Source of the DNA: a virus
IMG/VR virus record: IMGVR_UViG_3300042996_000006
Location: 1-40,113 of that record
Reading direction: 5' to 3' (one strand)
Length of the DNA stretch: 40,113 bases
The notes beneath the pieces are model-generated. The model was given only the letters and a program-made list of their open reading frames with translations. It was not told the DNA's origin and did no database searches. The stretch's first letter is position 1. Every line of letters starts with the position of its first letter. Made by a program: the position numbers and the translations under genes. Positions 4,353 through 38,861 of this stretch are shown here, in pieces.

Positions 4353-4676
4353 TCAGGCCTCCTGCTGGTCGGGAAGGGTGCGGGCCGGTGCTGCGGGGCG
4401 GGCGCGGAAGATGCGGCGCTGCGCCAGGTGCTCGGCCGGGAAGAGGCTGCGCGGATCCACCGGGATCGTCGGGCCGGAGGGCAGGCGCACCATGGCCAGC
4501 GGCCCGGCCTCGGCCAGCACGGGGTGCAGCCAGGCGACCAGCAGCGCGAAGCCGGTGTTCGGCGTCGCATGCGCGTCGGTGCTCGGGCGGTGCTCGGCCA
4601 CATAGACCGGCTCCGGCTGCGGCAGCGCCTGGTGGTGGAAGGTGCGGCCGCCGAGAGCGGCGAAGGTGACGGGCAT
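4353..4676 (-). CDS. Hypothetical early protein
   Basis: Protein of 107 residues starting MPVTFAALGGRTFHH, not recognised. The sequence is mixed alpha/beta in character with a central hydrophobic stretch (GFALLVAWLHPVLAEAGPLAMVRL) and a proline/arginine-rich C-terminus. The start at 4676 lies one base after the stop of the upstream gene, and the longer open frame upstream of it is only arginine/serine/proline-rich shadow sequence. Part of the leftward operon; no function is suggested. Confidence 0.6.
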   Translation of the reverse strand: MPVTFAALGGRTFHHQALPQPEPVYVAEHRPSTDAHATPNTGFALLVAWLHPVLAEAGPLAMVRLPSGPTIPVDPRSLFPAEHLAQRRIFRARPAAPARTLPDQQEA

Positions 4677-6273: not shown

Positions 6274-6876
6274 TCACCCGCGCTGCACCCACCGCACCGG
6301 CGCCGCCCAGAGCAGCCGCACGTCGTCGGACAGATCCCCGGTCTCGTAGCTGAACAGGCGAAACGTCCCGGGCTCCCCGCCGCGCAGCACGCGCTTTACC
6401 AGGCGCCTGCCGTCCTCGCACTGCAGGATGCAGTCCTGCCCGACCACGTCCTTGCAGACCTTCGCGACCTCCTCGGCGTAGAGGATGTCGCCGGCGCGGT
6501 AGGCCGGGTTCATGGACGTGCCCGTGACCCGAACGGCGACGGGGGCCTCGAGGCCGGGCGGGGCTGGGAAGCGATCGCCGTCCTCGTCGAGCGGAAAGAC
6601 CTCGGCGCCTGCGCCCACCTCGCCGAGAAGGCGAGCCTCTGACGGTCGCTGGCCGACGAGGGCTCCAGGGTCAGGGAGGTTGAGGGCGGCGGCGAGCTGG
6701 TGGATGCCCTTCGCGAACGGCGACGTGGCGCCGGTCTCATAACGAGACACCTGGGGCGCGGATAAGCCGGCCGCGGCGGCGAGCGCCTCCTGCGACATTC
6801 CCGCCTGAACCCTGGCATGGGTGAGCGCCGCGAGAGGCTTCGTTCCCGGGCGGCGCGCTGATCTTGGTCGCCCCAT
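6274..6876 (-). CDS. CI-type repressor with LexA-like S24 peptidase domain
   Basis: Prophage repressor of 200 residues from the ATG at 6876. An XRE-type helix-turn-helix lies at about 15-66 (MSQEALAAAAGLSAPQVSRYE). A C-terminal S24 domain has S121 in GTSMNPAYRAGD and K161 in RRLVKRVL, the expected serine-lysine dyad, and an Ala-Gly pair at 89-90 (EVGAGAEV) that fits a self-cleavage site. This predicts RecA-stimulated autocleavage and induction by DNA damage, as in lambda CI and LexA. An in-frame ATG at 6912 would add 12 residues. I prefer 6876 because it keeps two operator-motif copies upstream of the gene. No clear ribosome-binding site precedes either. Confidence 0.93.
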   Translation of the reverse strand: MGRPRSARRPGTKPLAALTHARVQAGMSQEALAAAAGLSAPQVSRYETGATSPFAKGIHQLAAALNLPDPGALVGQRPSEARLLGEVGAGAEVFPLDEDGDRFPAPPGLEAPVAVRVTGTSMNPAYRAGDILYAEEVAKVCKDVVGQDCILQCEDGRRLVKRVLRGGEPGTFRLFSYETGDLSDDVRLLWAAPVRWVQRG

Positions 6877-7935: not shown

Positions 7936-8378
7936 TCGCCGAGCGCGACCGCCTGGCCATGAAGGCGCGCTTCCGAGTGCTGGTGGACGCCGTCGGCGAC
8001 ATCGACACCGCTGCCCTCATCACCGGCGCCGGCAAGGGCACGCTCAGCAAGGCCTACAGCCCGCAATACCCGGACATGCCGACGGTGGACCGCGTCGCGT
8101 CGCTCGAGGCCGCGTCCGGCAAGCCGCACATGACCGCCCTGCTCGCCCGCCTTTCCGGCCATGTGCTGCTGCCGATCCCGGTCGAGCATGGCCCGGCCGG
8201 TGAGGCGCTTGCCGAGGTCCTGCGCGACGCCGGCGAGCTCGGCGGCCGCGTTGCCATCGCGCTCGGCGACGGCGAGCTGTCGGCCGACGAGATCGCCTCC
8301 CTCCTCGACGGCCTTGGGGAGCTGGCCCGCGCGGTGAGTCACGCCCAGGCCGTCCTCTCCTCGCGCAGCAAGGAATAG
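7932..8378 (+). CDS. CII/CP76-like phage regulatory protein
   Basis: Protein of 148 residues. The first 100 resemble the phage regulatory protein CII family of the CP76 type: a helix-turn-helix-like segment (DIDTAALITGAGKGTLSKAYSP, about 20-45), then PDMPTVDRVASLEAASGKPHMTALLARLSGHVLLP. The C-terminal half is helical and acidic (GELSADEIASLLDGLGELARAV). Such proteins control the lysis-lysogeny decision or early transcription; the exact role here is inferred. The start overlaps the stop of the long 7201 frame and has GGGAGG 8 bases upstream. It lies beside the operator-like repeats at 7788-7898. Confidence 0.6.
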   Translation: MIAERDRLAMKARFRVLVDAVGDIDTAALITGAGKGTLSKAYSPQYPDMPTVDRVASLEAASGKPHMTALLARLSGHVLLPIPVEHGPAGEALAEVLRDAGELGGRVAIALGDGELSADEIASLLDGLGELARAVSHAQAVLSSRSKE

Positions 8379-9312: not shown

Positions 9313-9575
9313 GCGCCTCCGCCGCCCCGACCCGCCCGCCGCTCGACGCCACCGAGGCGATCCGCCTCCCGGCCGTGCCGGCAGAGCATCTCGACCAGGT
9401 CCTGCGCGCAGCGGGCAGCAGCCTCTACCCCGCCCTCGCGGTGCTGGTGGCGGCGATCGGCTTCCTGATCGCCCGCTGCTTCCACAGCGGCGCCCGCGCC
9501 GTGCTCCTGCGCGGCATCCCCGGCGCCATTGCATTGGCGGTGCGGCTGCATGATGGGGTGGAGGGGCGGGGCTGA
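9309..9575 (+). CDS. Small protein with one membrane segment
   Basis: Protein of 88 residues with a polar N-terminus and a hydrophobic segment at about residues 39-57 (YPALAVLVAAIGFLIA), then a more weakly hydrophobic C-terminal stretch (VLLRGIPGAIALAVRL). It is probably an inner-membrane protein of unknown role. It starts in an ATGA overlap with the previous gene and ends in a TGATG overlap with the primase gene. Confidence 0.55.
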   Translation: MSASAAPTRPPLDATEAIRLPAVPAEHLDQVLRAAGSSLYPALAVLVAAIGFLIARCFHSGARAVLLRGIPGAIALAVRLHDGVEGRG

Positions 9576-10591
9576 TGCCGCTGATCCCCGACCACGTCCT
9601 CGCCGAGATCCGCGTCCGGGTGCCGCTGCGGGAGATTGTCTCGCGGCTCACCCCGCTGAAGCGCGCCGGCAATCGCTGGAAGGGCTGCTGCCCAATCCAC
9701 GGGGAGCGCAGCCCCTCGTTCTACGTCTACCCCGACCACGTCCACTGCTACGGCTGCGGCTTCCACGGTGACGCCTTCGCCTTCGTCGTCGCGACGGAAG
9801 GCTGCAGCTTCCCCCAGGCCGTCGCGCGGCTCGCGGCGGAGGCCGGCGTGCCGATCGAGCTCGATGCGGGCGAGCGCCGCGTGCTGCCGCCGCCTCCGCC
9901 CCCTGAGCCGGAGCGCGACCCTGCCGAGGTGATCGCCCTGGCCCGCAAGTGGTGGGACGCGGCGCACCCAGTCACTGAAGGCTCGCCCGTGGCGCGCTAC
10001 CTCGCCGGGCGCGGCCTCTGGCCGGTGCCGCAGGCGGTGCTGCAGGTCCTCCGCGAGGCGGATCTCGAGCACCCCGATACCGGCCGCATCGCCATCCATC
10101 CGGTGATGCTCGCGCGGGTGGACGATGTGCGCGGCGAGCTGACGGCGGTGCACCGCACCTACCTTGCCCGGCAGGCGGACGGGTCCGTCGGCAAGCTCGC
10201 CGGCGTGGATGCGAAGATGACCTTCGGCGTCTTCCCGCCGGGCGCCGCCATTCGCCTCTTCCCGGCCGCGTCGCGCATGGGCGTGGCGGAGGGGATCGAG
10301 ACCGCACTCGCCGGCGCCGCGCTGCTGCGCGTGCGGACCTGGTCGACTGTGTCCGCCGGCGTGCTCGAGAAGTGGGTGCCGCCGGAGGGATGCGAGGAGG
10401 TCTGGATCCTCGCGGACCGGGACAAGCCGCGCGCGAAGCCGCCGCGGCCGGAAGGGCAGGGGATGCATTCTGCCCGCGTGCTGGCGGCCGAGCTCGGCCG
10501 GCGCGGCGTGGCCTGCCGCATCCGCCTGCCGCTGCCGCCGGCGGAGGACTACGCCGACGTGCTGGCGGCGCGACGTGGGGAGGCGGCGTGA
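9575..10591 (+). CDS. DNA primase with CHC2 zinc finger and Toprim domain
   Basis: Primase-like protein of 338 residues that would make primers for phage DNA replication. A CHC2-type zinc ribbon is clear: C39-x2-H42-x15-C58-x2-C61, in a context (WKGCCPIHGERSPSFYV) typical of DnaG-like and phage primases. A Toprim fold follows, with E239 in VAEGIETAL and the metal-binding D281-R282-D283 in ILADRDKP. The protein is shorter than DnaG and lacks its helicase-binding domain; the next gene supplies a helicase, so together they resemble the bifunctional primase-helicases of other phages. Start and stop overlap both neighbours (TGATG and GTGA). Confidence 0.92.
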   Translation: MPLIPDHVLAEIRVRVPLREIVSRLTPLKRAGNRWKGCCPIHGERSPSFYVYPDHVHCYGCGFHGDAFAFVVATEGCSFPQAVARLAAEAGVPIELDAGERRVLPPPPPPEPERDPAEVIALARKWWDAAHPVTEGSPVARYLAGRGLWPVPQAVLQVLREADLEHPDTGRIAIHPVMLARVDDVRGELTAVHRTYLARQADGSVGKLAGVDAKMTFGVFPPGAAIRLFPAASRMGVAEGIETALAGAALLRVRTWSTVSAGVLEKWVPPEGCEEVWILADRDKPRAKPPRPEGQGMHSARVLAAELGRRGVACRIRLPLPPAEDYADVLAARRGEAA

Positions 10592-12516
10592 CCGCGAAGA
10601 TCATCACCGGCCCCTTCTCGCCGCGCGCGCCCCAGGCGGACGCGCCTTTCGACGAAGAGGTCACCGCCCCGCCCCCCGCCCCCCCGGAGGAGGTCGAGGA
10701 TCGGAGGGGCGGCGGCTCCGGCGGCGGGCGCGGCAAGCGCGCCAAGCCCGGAGACTTCGGCCCCGTCGTGCCGCTGGGCACCACCACCAGTCGCGGCACC
10801 ACGGCGCTCGTCTTCCTCGACGCCGCCGGCAAGCGCTCCATGCTCTCCGCCGCGCAGATCCGGAATGCCTCCTGGCTGTCGCTGCTCTTCGGCGGTGATG
10901 ACGGGCGGGAGACGCTGATGCGCCTCTGGCCGAAGCGCACGCCGGTGACCGACGCCGAGGGCAAACCGGTCCTCGACGACAAGGGCGAGCCGAAGATGGC
11001 CGTGACGGGGTTCAATCCCGTGGCCGCCGGCGACGCCCTCATCTCGGCCTGCGTCCGCGCGGGCGACGCCGGCGCGGCCGAGCTTCGGCGCGACGGGCTC
11101 TGGCGGCACTCCGACGGCTCGCTGCTGCACCACTGCGGCAACCTGGTGCGGTACGCCGGCGCCGATCACGCGCCGGGGCTGCGCGACGGCATCGCGATCT
11201 ACGTCTCGGCTGAGCGCCGGGAGCCGCCCGCCCCGGCCGAGGCGACGATTGCGGAGTGCGAGGCGCTCGAGGAGGCCTTCCGTCTCTGGAACTTCGCGGA
11301 CCCGGCCTCGGCCGAGCTGCTGATGGGGCTGGTGGCCTGCGGCATCTACGGCGCCGTGCTGAGCTGGCGGCCGCACGTCTTCATCCAGGCCCTCGAGGGC
11401 AGCGGCAAGAGCTCGCTCAACCGCCTGGTCGCGCTCGCCTGCGGGGCGGGCGAGCCGTCCACCGACATCTCCGAGCCGGGCATTCGGCGGATGTACAACT
11501 CCCGCTCCGGCATCATCCCGCTGGATGAGGCAGAATCGAACGCGCATGACGTCGGGCGCGTCGTCGGCCTCATGCGCGGCGCGTCGGACGGGGAGGGGTC
11601 GAAGACCGTCCGCGCCGCGCAGGACGGCAGCGGGCATGAGGTGTTCCGCGTCGCGGGCTGCTTCCTGCTCACCGCGATCACCCAGCCGAAGATGACCGCG
11701 GCGGACCTGTCGCGCATCACCCGCATCGATCTTCGGCCGATCGAGGTCGACCGGACGGAGGAGGTGCGGGCGGCGCAGGCGATGGCGCGGGAGCTGCACC
11801 CGAAGCTGCTGGCCCGCCTCCTTGCACGCTGGCCGCAATACGAGGCGAGCCTGGCGGCAGCGCGCGAGGCGGTGCTCGCCACCGATTCCACGGGCCGCAG
11901 CGCCGACCAGCTCGGCGCGCTCTTCGCCGGCTGGTGGGTGCTGCATTCCGACGCCCCCCTTACCCCCGACCAGGCGCGGGACGTCATGCCGCGCTTCGCC
12001 GGCTTCGTCTCCACCCGGGCCGAGGCGGCCGAGCACAACACGGCCCGCCGGGCGCTCAACCACATGCTCGCCAGCCGGGTGCCGGTGGGCCTGCGCAGCG
12101 GGGACTACATGACCCTGCAGCAGGCGCTGTCGGAGGCCGACGGCGCGCACTGGGCGGCGGTGGGGGCGAAGCAGCGCGGCGACGCCGGCGTCTACGCCCT
12201 CGAGCAGCAGGCGAAGAGCTGGCGGAAGAAGCTCGGCGGTCTCGGCCTGCGGCTCATCTACGGGCCCGAGAAGGACGCCTGGCCCGGCAAGGGCCCCCCG
12301 ACCCCCGGGGTCTGGGTCAGGAATGGCGCGCCGCCGATCGAGGCGTGCTTCGCCGGCACGGAGTGGTCGGGCGGCGCATGGGAGGGGCTGCTGCGGCAGC
12401 TGCCCGATGCGCAGGTCTCGAAGACCTCCATGAAGTTCACGGGCGGCGGCCAGGACCGAGCCGTGCTGGTGATCATGGAGCACCTCGGGCTGGAGGATGC
12501 CGGCGATGACGGCTGA
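10588..12516 (+). CDS. P-loop replicative helicase/ATPase
   Basis: Protein of 642 residues from a GTG overlapping the primase stop. The first 50 residues are proline/glycine-rich and probably disordered. The central domain has a Walker A motif, EGSGKSS (about 270-276), and a Walker B-like PLDEAE (about 311-316), as in phage and plasmid D5/DUF927-like helicases that unwind DNA at the fork. Further conserved-looking segments are GCFLLTAITQPKM and ADLSRITRIDLRPI, consistent with the arginine-finger region of such ATPases. Coupling to the primase and the repeat array immediately downstream suggest that it acts at an origin located there. Confidence 0.85.
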   Translation: MTAKIITGPFSPRAPQADAPFDEEVTAPPPAPPEEVEDRRGGGSGGGRGKRAKPGDFGPVVPLGTTTSRGTTALVFLDAAGKRSMLSAAQIRNASWLSLLFGGDDGRETLMRLWPKRTPVTDAEGKPVLDDKGEPKMAVTGFNPVAAGDALISACVRAGDAGAAELRRDGLWRHSDGSLLHHCGNLVRYAGADHAPGLRDGIAIYVSAERREPPAPAEATIAECEALEEAFRLWNFADPASAELLMGLVACGIYGAVLSWRPHVFIQALEGSGKSSLNRLVALACGAGEPSTDISEPGIRRMYNSRSGIIPLDEAESNAHDVGRVVGLMRGASDGEGSKTVRAAQDGSGHEVFRVAGCFLLTAITQPKMTAADLSRITRIDLRPIEVDRTEEVRAAQAMARELHPKLLARLLARWPQYEASLAAAREAVLATDSTGRSADQLGALFAGWWVLHSDAPLTPDQARDVMPRFAGFVSTRAEAAEHNTARRALNHMLASRVPVGLRSGDYMTLQQALSEADGAHWAAVGAKQRGDAGVYALEQQAKSWRKKLGGLGLRLIYGPEKDAWPGKGPPTPGVWVRNGAPPIEACFAGTEWSGGAWEGLLRQLPDAQVSKTSMKFTGGGQDRAVLVIMEHLGLEDAGDDG

Positions 12517-12518
12517 GC

Positions 12519-12742
12519 GTTCCCGAAATGCCTGACCGTTCCCCAGAACGTTCCCTCCAAGCCTTTGAGAAGGCCCGAAGGGAACAGGGGAACGCAGGGA
12601 ACGGTGGGTTGGTGTGATGTGGGTGCGCGGGCGGGTGCGCGCGTGAGCAGCAGCAGCGTTCCCACCGTTCCCTTGTTCCAATCCTTTTAGAACAAAGGGT
12701 TAGAGGGAACAGAAAAGGGAACGGTTAACTGATTTAGGGAAC
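12519..12742 (+). repeat. Iteron-like array of GGGAAC/GTTCCC, candidate replication origin
   Basis: Eleven exact copies of one hexamer in 224 bases. GTTCCC starts at 12519, 12538 and 12550; GGGAAC at 12580, 12588 and 12597; GTTCCC at 12658 and 12667 with a variant GTTCCA at 12675; GGGAAC at 12705, 12717 and 12737. The order is two blocks, each three inverted then three direct. The next base after GGGAAC is always G or A. Between the blocks GGGTGCGCG is repeated at 12621 and 12633. The second block is AT-rich for this genome (12680-12735), as expected for a DNA-unwinding element. It directly follows the primase and helicase genes. Confidence 0.6.
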
Positions 12743-12757
12743 AGGGGGTCGAAGGCG

Positions 12758-13477
12758 ATGGATGGCGGCGCGATGTGGGGTGCGAATCAACTTGACGGCA
12801 TAAGCGGAACCGTTGCACCAACGGCGCAGGGACACGCTCCCGCCCTCGGTGTGACCGGGGCGACGGCATCCCTCGCCGAGCTGGGTCTCCCCCGCTCCGC
12901 GCATGCCGAGCCCGAACCGGGTCCGGTGCTGCCGCAATGGCGAGACCCCTCCGCGAAGTGGATCGTGGTCGAGCACCGGCCCATGGTGGGCGCCAAGGTC
13001 CGCCTCGAGCTCCGGCGTCAAGGCTGGGAGGTGCACTGGCCGCGTGAGGTCGAGCGCCGGCACCGCTGCGACGACGTGCTGAGGCCCTACTTCCCGGGCT
13101 ACATGTTCGCCCTCGCCTGCGGCGGCGTGCCCTCCTGGCGGGACCTGCTCGAGGACGTGCCCTGCGTCATTGGCGTCTGCGGCGTCCGGGAGACGGGCCG
13201 CCCGGTGCACCCGCCCGCGGGCTTCGTGCTCATGCTGATCGAGCTGGCGGGTGGCGCCCTGGATGGCGTGATCCCGGCGAGCGAGGACCTGGTGGTCGAG
13301 CGGGTGAAGCGCCGCCTCGAGCCGGGGGCGCGGGTGGACATCACGGCCGGCCCTTGGGCGAGCTTCTCCGCCGTGGTGCTCGCCGATCGCGGCAAGCGCA
13401 TCGAGGTCATGCTGTCGCTCTTCGGGGAGCCGAGGGTCGTGGCGGTGCCCCGCGCCCGCATCGCCGAGCGCCCCTGA
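12758..13477 (+). CDS. NusG-like transcription antitermination protein
   Basis: Protein of up to 239 residues with the two-domain layout of NusG. An NGN-type domain runs at about 67-165 (KWIVVEHRPMVGAKVRLELRRQGWEV, then LRPYFPGYMFA, a hallmark of the family). A KOW-type segment is near the C-terminus (EPGARVDITAGPWASFSAVV, then RIEVMLSLFGEPRVVAVP). NusG paralogues travel with RNA polymerase and modify pausing and termination. Placed just before the late genes, it may take the role of lambda Q, which is inference. The N-terminal 65 residues are unusual and contain the element at 12786-12824. Starts at GTG 12851 or 12926 are real alternatives. Confidence 0.82.
   Translation: MDGGAMWGANQLDGISGTVAPTAQGHAPALGVTGATASLAELGLPRSAHAEPEPGPVLPQWRDPSAKWIVVEHRPMVGAKVRLELRRQGWEVHWPREVERRHRCDDVLRPYFPGYMFALACGGVPSWRDLLEDVPCVIGVCGVRETGRPVHPPAGFVLMLIELAGGALDGVIPASEDLVVERVKRRLEPGARVDITAGPWASFSAVVLADRGKRIEVMLSLFGEPRVVAVPRARIAERP
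12786..12824 (+). promoter_or_regulatory. Conserved element ATCAA-TTGACG-N7-CGGAACCGTT, copy 2
   Basis: ATCAA (12786-12790), TTGACG (12792-12797) and CGGAACCGTT (12805-12814) repeat the element at 8419-8447 with identical spacing. It runs into a perfect inverted repeat, CCGTTG-CAC-CAACGG, at 12810-12824. No good -10 hexamer follows. It sits at the 5' end of the NusG-like gene, so either the gene starts downstream of it or the element lies within coding sequence. Confidence 0.5.
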
Positions 13478-13587
13478 TGGTGCGACGCACCAACCGAGCG
13501 GCGCCGCGTCGACGTCCGGCCCGATGGGTCCCTCCCGGCTGCGGACATATACGGGGGGCGAGAGCGCCCGACATCGCTAGTGCCGGG

Positions 13588-38003: not shown

Positions 38004-38861
38004 TTAAGGGCATTTCCCAATCAACTCCCCGTTGGAGTCTATTCGGCCCATCTCGATGCAAGCGCCCTCAATGTGCCTCAGGGCGCGTTCGGTGGCGTTG
38101 TGCATGGTCGCGAGGGAGTGGACAAGCGGCTTGCCACTCAGCGTGCCGACGTTGCCGAGGAGCAGCTTGCCGGAGATGCGGAGCTTCGCTTGCGGGTTCC
38201 GAGGCTCGAATGCTCCGTTTGGCGCTAGCGTGGTTAACAGTATTCCTTGCTCAAGTGAGCGCAATGTCCCGTCAATTGTAATCCCGCCGATTGAGTTCAC
38301 AAAATGGAAGTTGCTCAGGATCTGTAGTGCGCCGTGCGCGCTGGCAGGAATGATTTCGCGATGATTATCGTGATTCGCCATCGGGAAAACATGGTAGAAA
38401 TCAATGTTTCCGGTGTAAGGAATTTGCTCGCGACAGGCGATTTTATTGTCAGTCTCGTTGCCATGCGGGGCAAGTTGGCGGATTAGTTCAATAAAATCTT
38501 CGTCCACGCCCTTCAATTTCTTTGAAATCTCTTCATTAAACGCACTAATGTGTTTGCCGCTCGGGAAAGCTATTTTGGCGAGATCTGGATTTCCTGTCGA
38601 CATGCGAGCCAAAGCGACAGCTACCTGGTCCAGTGCGGAGCGAAGGTGATAAACCACTTCCCCGGTCAGCACGTGAACCAATGGCGGAACGTCTGCTCGA
38701 AGACGGATAAAGACTAGCTTATTGCCAGTCCCGGGCTCTGTTTCTGTGTCCATGGTGGGAGCGTTGCTGTCGAAAAATTCTCGTTCCAGCACCCCCAGCT
38801 GTATGATTTGCTCGCGTGCTCGTTCGAGCTTGATGCGTGGGCCAAAGAACGGGCGGTGCAT
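38004..38861 (-). CDS. Accessory protein of unknown function, AT-richer cargo
   Basis: Protein of 285 residues from the ATG at 38861, chosen over 38876 because GGAGAG lies in good position before it. It begins MHRPFFGPRIKLERAREQI. A central VVYHLRSALDQVAVALAR resembles a helix motif (LRSALDHL-type) found in many uncharacterised bacterial proteins. The rest alternates helices and strands without a catalytic motif I can name. Base composition is clearly less GC-rich than the phage genes, with many A/T-ending codons, which points to recent transfer. As a leftward gene beyond the lysis cassette it fits lysogenic cargo, perhaps defence-related, but that is only a guess. Confidence 0.75.
   Translation of the reverse strand: MHRPFFGPRIKLERAREQIIQLGVLEREFFDSNAPTMDTETEPGTGNKLVFIRLRADVPPLVHVLTGEVVYHLRSALDQVAVALARMSTGNPDLAKIAFPSGKHISAFNEEISKKLKGVDEDFIELIRQLAPHGNETDNKIACREQIPYTGNIDFYHVFPMANHDNHREIIPASAHGALQILSNFHFVNSIGGITIDGTLRSLEQGILLTTLAPNGAFEPRNPQAKLRISGKLLLGNVGTLSGKPLVHSLATMHNATERALRHIEGACIEMGRIDSNGELIGKCP

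Follow-up and report, generated by a model that had tools for sequence, protein, structure and literature searches.

A mirror-symmetric array of twelve hexamer sites downstream of a helicase gene, a candidate replication origin in a temperate tailed phage

The window analyzed here, a whole IMG/VR virus record of 40,113 nucleotides (IMGVR_UViG_3300042996_000006), is that of a temperate tailed phage. It encodes an integrase, a cI repressor, a CII-like activator, a CHC2/Toprim primase and a helicase, followed by the array under study, a NusG-like antiterminator and then the terminases, the portal, the head protein/protease and the tape measure. The integrase, cI and CII-like genes suggest an integrated prophage and not a plasmid prophage. 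The start of the helicase gene overlaps the stop of the primase gene, and between the helicase stop (12516) and the start of the NusG-like gene (12758) lies a gap of 241 bp which contains the array (Table 1). As a first, sequence-only reading of this DNA had proposed, the array directly follows the primase and helicase genes; it is intergenic and begins 2 bp past the helicase stop. Regarding the NusG-like gene, it is thought not to be part of the origin. An antiterminator of this type is found directly after the array and before the terminase genes in the window (12758-13477) and also in Synechococcus phage MinM1 (L123:5913-6542).

Table 1. Genes flanking the array and parts of the array in the window
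Feature	Position	Strand	Evidence or description
DNA primase, CHC2 zinc ribbon and Toprim	9575..10591	+	Pfam Zn_ribbon_DnaG E 1.6e-23, Toprim_3 E 1.9e-10; phrog_510 E 2.3e-46
Proposed origin-binding self-loading helicase, 642 aa	10588..12516	+	phrog_21086 E 7.8e-93; phrog_35358 (DNA primase) E 1.3e-29
Candidate origin, 12-site mirror-symmetric hexamer array	12519..12742		Site counts, symmetry, layout recurring in relatives with other hexamers
Outer triplet, helicase-proximal arm	12519..12555	-	GTTCCC at 12519, 12538, 12550; steps 19, 12
Proximal-arm gap	12556..12579		42% AT; TCYAASCCTTTG common with distal arm read backwards
Inner triplet, proximal arm	12580..12602	+	GGGAAC at 12580, 12588, 12597; steps 8, 9
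Centre	12603..12657		GGGTGCGCG direct repeats at 12621, 12633; alternating purine-pyrimidine run GTGCGCGCGTG at 12635-12645
Inner triplet, distal arm	12658..12680	-	GTTCCC at 12658, 12667; GTTCCA at 12675; steps 9, 8
Distal-arm gap	12681..12704		65% AT vs genome 28%; AAAGGGTTAGAG at end; candidate DNA-unwinding element
Outer triplet, distal arm	12705..12742	+	GGGAAC at 12705, 12717, 12737; steps 12, 20
NusG-like transcription antiterminator	12758..13477	+	Pfam NusG E 2.2e-5; phrog_6386 E 1.3e-14

The eleven exact GGGAAC/GTTCCC hexamers and the single variant that had been counted in these 224 bases are all present where they had been placed, the variant (twelfth) site being GTTCCA at 12675. 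About 0.15 exact copies would be expected per 224 bp, as compared with the 11 seen at 12519-12742, and the array is the densest cluster of any hexamer in the 40-kb record (11 copies vs at most 7 for unrelated hexamers). Outside the array, where the density of the hexamer was to be compared with chance, there are 16 copies, close to the chance level (27 in all for a shuffle mean of 17.9). GTTCCC three times in a row was found nowhere in the record outside the array, the reversed-pattern control being likewise 0, and no second GGGAAC cluster was found in the record. A nucleotide search of positions 12000-13500 against phage records gave no match, and a literature search on the hexamer together with origin, iteron or primase returned nothing relevant.

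Six sites face one way and six the other, the variant included. The two blocks had been described as each made of three inverted and then three direct copies; this order is confirmed, but the second block is the inverted mirror of the first. Indeed, the start-to-start spacings read 19, 12, 30, 8, 9 in the first arm, 61 across the centre and 9, 8, 30, 12, 20 in the second. Such a mirror agreement within 1 bp has a permutation P of ~0.0003 and occurred in 0 of 200,000 random placements. The array is a single 12-site mirror-symmetric unit. Moreover, the sequence between the sites of one arm matches that of the other arm reversed at 44%, vs 25% in shuffles, and an old inverted duplication may therefore have contributed to the symmetry.

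Regarding base composition, the second block is AT-rich in a GC-rich genome, as had been noticed (55% AT vs 28% AT), and fewer than 100 of ~40,000 intervals in the record are more AT-rich. The record's most AT-rich 85 bp, which exceed this block, lie at 38471-38555 (63.5% AT). The centre of the array, between the two iteron sets, contains the direct repeat that had been reported to separate the blocks (GGGTGCGCG, present twice) and is only 27% AT, the AT-rich stretch being located instead inside the distal arm (65% AT). When the gap of this arm is compared by eye with the corresponding gap of a related locus, L156, ~19 of 26 bases match, even though the hexamers of the two loci differ and their helicases are only 31% identical. 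On account of this match, DNA unwinding or replication start is a candidate role for the gap. The alternating purine-pyrimidine run at the centre of the window's array is 11 bp long and unexceptional, 9% of other intervals reaching that length. The change in GC skew that was to be looked for did not appear, there being no extremum or switch at the array.

To examine relatives of the helicase, these were gathered by protein similarity alone, ignoring the array, in an alignment (A1) of 80 viral loci, to which isolated phages were added; searching viral contigs with this alignment reached 261 relatives, of which 80 were kept. Scanning viral contigs with the helicase protein alone recovered no relative, and alignment A1 found none among genome contigs. 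Relatives were clustered into lineages at 70% protein identity, gene calls in the related loci being mechanical, and hexamers were discovered de novo in the interval between 60 bp upstream and 450 bp downstream of the helicase stop. A significant single-hexamer array, with 7-13 copies, is present just 3' of the helicase gene in 17 of the 40 lineages, vs none of 148 control regions taken from these loci. In other relatives the array lies farther off (0.5-3 kb), either downstream (L139, L132, L134, L142, L164 and Serratia phage MQ-4) or upstream (Acinetobacter phage Acjo_20), and ~16 of the 40 lineages show no clear array within flanks of ~4 kb. Because the flanks extend over 4 kb only, the number of array-bearing lineages is a lower bound. 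On the contig of locus L128, a 12-site GGGAAC array (L250) is found ~5.5 kb past the helicase, beyond the L128 stretch. The expectation that related phages with the same helicase carry the array is hence borne out for most of them, often with another hexamer, but some show none within these flanks.

What these phages share is, on the sequences compared, the ~12-site mirror layout and not the hexamer itself. Synechococcus phage MinM1 has the gene order of the window, and its corresponding gap holds CTCACA/TGTGAG arranged in the same way, from which it follows that the layout is conserved while the word varies; GGGAAC as the conserved feature was accordingly dropped. Other words found in relatives are GGTCACC, TCTTAC, CGTTAC, GTTGCA, GGTTCC and TGTCCC. 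Typically, the steps within an arm are 9-12 or ~20 bp in the outer group and 8-9 bp in the inner group, with a 30-55 bp gap between the two groups, and the centre that separates the arms measures ~50-110 bp. In 11 arrays tested, chosen for looking complete, the mirror symmetry of the spacings has a permutation P of 0.0002 to 0.003. The orientation order of the sites varies among arrays. Scans of viral contigs with GGGAAC fixed matched the order of the window in 28 contigs, the reverse order in 14 and a scrambled control order in 1. The centres are also diverse. In 12 of 24 arrays the central alternating run is the longest of its own locus (up to 51 bp), and in a second group the centre is not alternating but rich in AT or in T. 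The array centres of L132 and L139, at ~1.5 and 2.1 kb beyond the end of the helicase gene, carry alternating runs of 51 and 42 bp, respectively, which are strongly Z-DNA-prone.

The scans also brought to light GGGAAC clusters in other settings. Several arrays fall within a long open frame for a phrog_10537-type primase/helicase, at its 3' end (L069:2127-2420, L070:13911-14219, L064:8929-9232 and L116:1648-1941), and many of their steps are multiples of 9, as though they were also coding. One viral contig (L086) has four small GTTCCC/GGGAAC clusters over a ~7.4 kb span (742-768, 4463-4529, 6691-6764 and 8075-8174). Single-orientation GGGAAC clusters in viral contigs were set aside as a group, as probable coding repeats.

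Which protein might read these sites? The AlphaFold2 model of the helicase (pLDDT 86) has as its best PDB match by Foldseek the SCCmec protein Cch (5dgk, E 5e-8), the closest solved fold, albeit at 11% structural-alignment identity. Further matches are NrS-1, MCM and SaPI5 PriRep1, the entries 7pds and 7ola being matched at E ~2e-4 to 6e-4, and a PDB search with the sequence returned nothing meaningful. The protein is thus predicted to adopt the fold of Cch/Rep self-loading AAA+ helicases. Among the relatives of this fold, Cch2 and SaPI Rep themselves bind iterons located 3' of their own genes (PMC7581432). Across phages, hexamer similarity is correlated with the identity of the helicase C-terminal region (Spearman 0.32, Mantel P 0.0005; 0.26 for the identity of the ATPase), a correlation which is weak, 0.18, once close pairs are removed. 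A structure search with the C-terminal region alone matched no solved or DNA-binding fold. On the predicted fold and these comparisons, the upstream helicase is the likely binder of the hexamers. It could be, nonetheless, that the array is an origin whose hexamers are recognized by a host protein, or by a phage protein other than the helicase, with indirect loading of the helicase. Some relatives of the helicase directly adjoin GGGAAC arrays (e.g., L221 and L242). Such arrays are also found at the 3' end of other primase/helicase families, of the Prim-Pol, Toprim/DUF927 and AAA_25 types, and a common host factor would explain why phages with different primase types have the same word. As related helicases have different hexamers, motif similarity tracks C-terminal identity and the known relatives of the fold bind their iterons themselves, we consider such an indirect reading improbable, though the strongest of the alternatives.

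The array resembles several known origins without being identical to any of them. Lambda-type and plasmid iteron origins consist mostly of direct repeats, on which a dedicated initiator recruits DnaB. As in the window, repeats and an AT-rich stretch lie beside replication genes in these classical origins, but their iterons are mostly in one orientation, whereas the window has six sites in each and a ring-helicase gene next to them. Closer is the crr element of the satellite P4. In the P4 record, crr is annotated 46 bp 3' of the alpha gene with two 120-bp iteron blocks and, as we read the sequence, each block has an order similar to that of the window, running from an iteron that faces the opposite way through a group and an AT-rich gap to an inner pair. 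The system of P4 comprises crr and ori1, with type I iterons GGTGAACA, and the alpha protein. Its crr lies, like the array of the window, directly 3' of a primase-helicase gene and has, again like the window, two blocks, iterons of mixed orientation and an AT-rich gap, the inner steps being 9 bp in P4. The two differ in that the blocks of crr are direct repeats whereas the arms of the window, with 12 sites and a different hexamer, are mirror images; that the AT-rich gap is found inside each crr block but, in the window, clearly so only in the distal arm; that P4 has a second, distant ori1, for which no counterpart GGGAAC cluster exists in the window; and that the window belongs to a full tailed phage.

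The rep-ori of PICIs and SaPIs is likewise placed directly 3' of the initiator helicase gene, with two iteron sets whose iterons are element-specific (PMC6092414; PMC7581432), an organization known in no other bacterial replicon according to a 2018 paper (PMC6092414). The window shares with it the position directly 3' of the helicase gene, the two iteron sets and a helicase fold resembling SaPI5 PriRep1. In PICIs and SaPIs, the AT-rich DNA lies between the iteron sets, whereas in the window it lies inside one arm and the centre is GC-rich and alternating. PICIs are satellites, without a complete set of structural genes of their own; the phage of the window has genes for terminase, portal, head and tape-measure proteins as well as for integrase and cI, and is not a PICI. 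In PICIs and SaPIs, the iteron word is specific to each element and is read by the C-terminal domain of the initiator. Among the relatives of the window the hexamer differs by phage, its correlation with the C-terminus is weak and the C-terminal region matched no known fold. In SCCmec, the iterons bound by Cch2 closely follow its gene (PMC7581432), but there are only three AAGTG iterons, without the mirror 12-site layout. These likenesses to P4, SaPI and Cch argue that the array of the window works as those origins do, although its symmetry differs and the phage is a full tailed one. No description of a mirror-symmetric variant of the P4/PICI kind of origin was found in the literature.

Functions other than replication have to be weighed. 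Multi-site mirror arrays can bind regulators, and the two genes flanking the array read in the same direction, as might be expected of an operator or a partition-like array through which a regulator or a ParB-like protein controls transcription or prophage maintenance. We hold this to be very unlikely: the region has no match to a sigma-70-like promoter or to a terminator, the integrase, cI and CII-like genes speak for a prophage that is integrated and not a plasmid, and layout and position track the helicase gene across phages. A packaging recognition site (pac or cos) is suggested by the NusG-like, TerS and TerL genes that come next in the window and in MinM1, but it has hardly more than a slight chance of being correct, since terminase genes are near the array only in some relatives. 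In L167 the gene near the array is that of a polymerase processivity factor, in L181 that of a PAPS reductase and in L189 that of a minor tail protein; what stays constant is the helicase. Moreover, a layout like that of the array is seen in P4 crr, which is an element of replication. Least probable among the alternatives is that the array acts as a stem-loop structure, in RNA or in DNA, of the sort put forward for pRN1 and Bordetella phage BIP-1 (3' stem-loop; PMC4234260). The inverted triplets could form hairpins, but the orientation order varies among arrays and the sites need not pair, Rfam gave chance-level hits only, none above threshold, and in phage BPP-1 the GTTTGCCTCG-type copies flank an AT-rich stretch. 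BPP-1 is described as nearly identical to BIP-1; its two GTTTGCCTCG-type and two inverted copies surround this stretch ~470-570 bp past the primase gene (L209:1060-1740).

The best-supported reading is that of an iteron-type phage replication origin, as the sequence-only reading had put forward, given the near-chance density of the hexamer elsewhere and the arrays beside related helicases. That distantly related viruses repeat the mirror layout with different words indicates that the array is very probably a site where DNA copying starts. By comparison with the systems above, it is very probably a variant of the iteron origins of P4 and the PICIs, with the helicase encoded next to it as its reader. 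We infer the following course, which as a whole we regard as quite probable: the hexamers would serve as iterons to which the helicase binds, probably by its C-terminal region, and one ring hexamer of the helicase would assemble on each of the two mirror-image arms with their six sites. The helicase would then melt the weak DNA, in the AT-rich gap of the distal arm, in the alternating GC centre or in both, and bidirectional replication would begin at the array with the adjacent primase and host enzymes. More tentatively, and with the balance somewhat against it, the array may belong to a widespread, unnamed class of tailed-phage origins, in which 12 mirror sites, six per arm, would template the loading of two helicase hexamers that face each other across a Z-DNA-prone centre; word and helicase would co-evolve under an unchanging geometry.

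Finally, a mirror array of ~12 sites of a single hexamer 3' of Cch/Rep-fold helicase genes would offer a testable rule by which the origins of uncultured tailed phages could be located from their sequence alone. It would carry over to ordinary temperate phages an origin layout that was called unique to phage satellites in 2018 (PMC6092414). With a fixed geometry and changing words, these arrays would moreover constitute a natural series on how ring helicases recognize origins and are loaded onto them.
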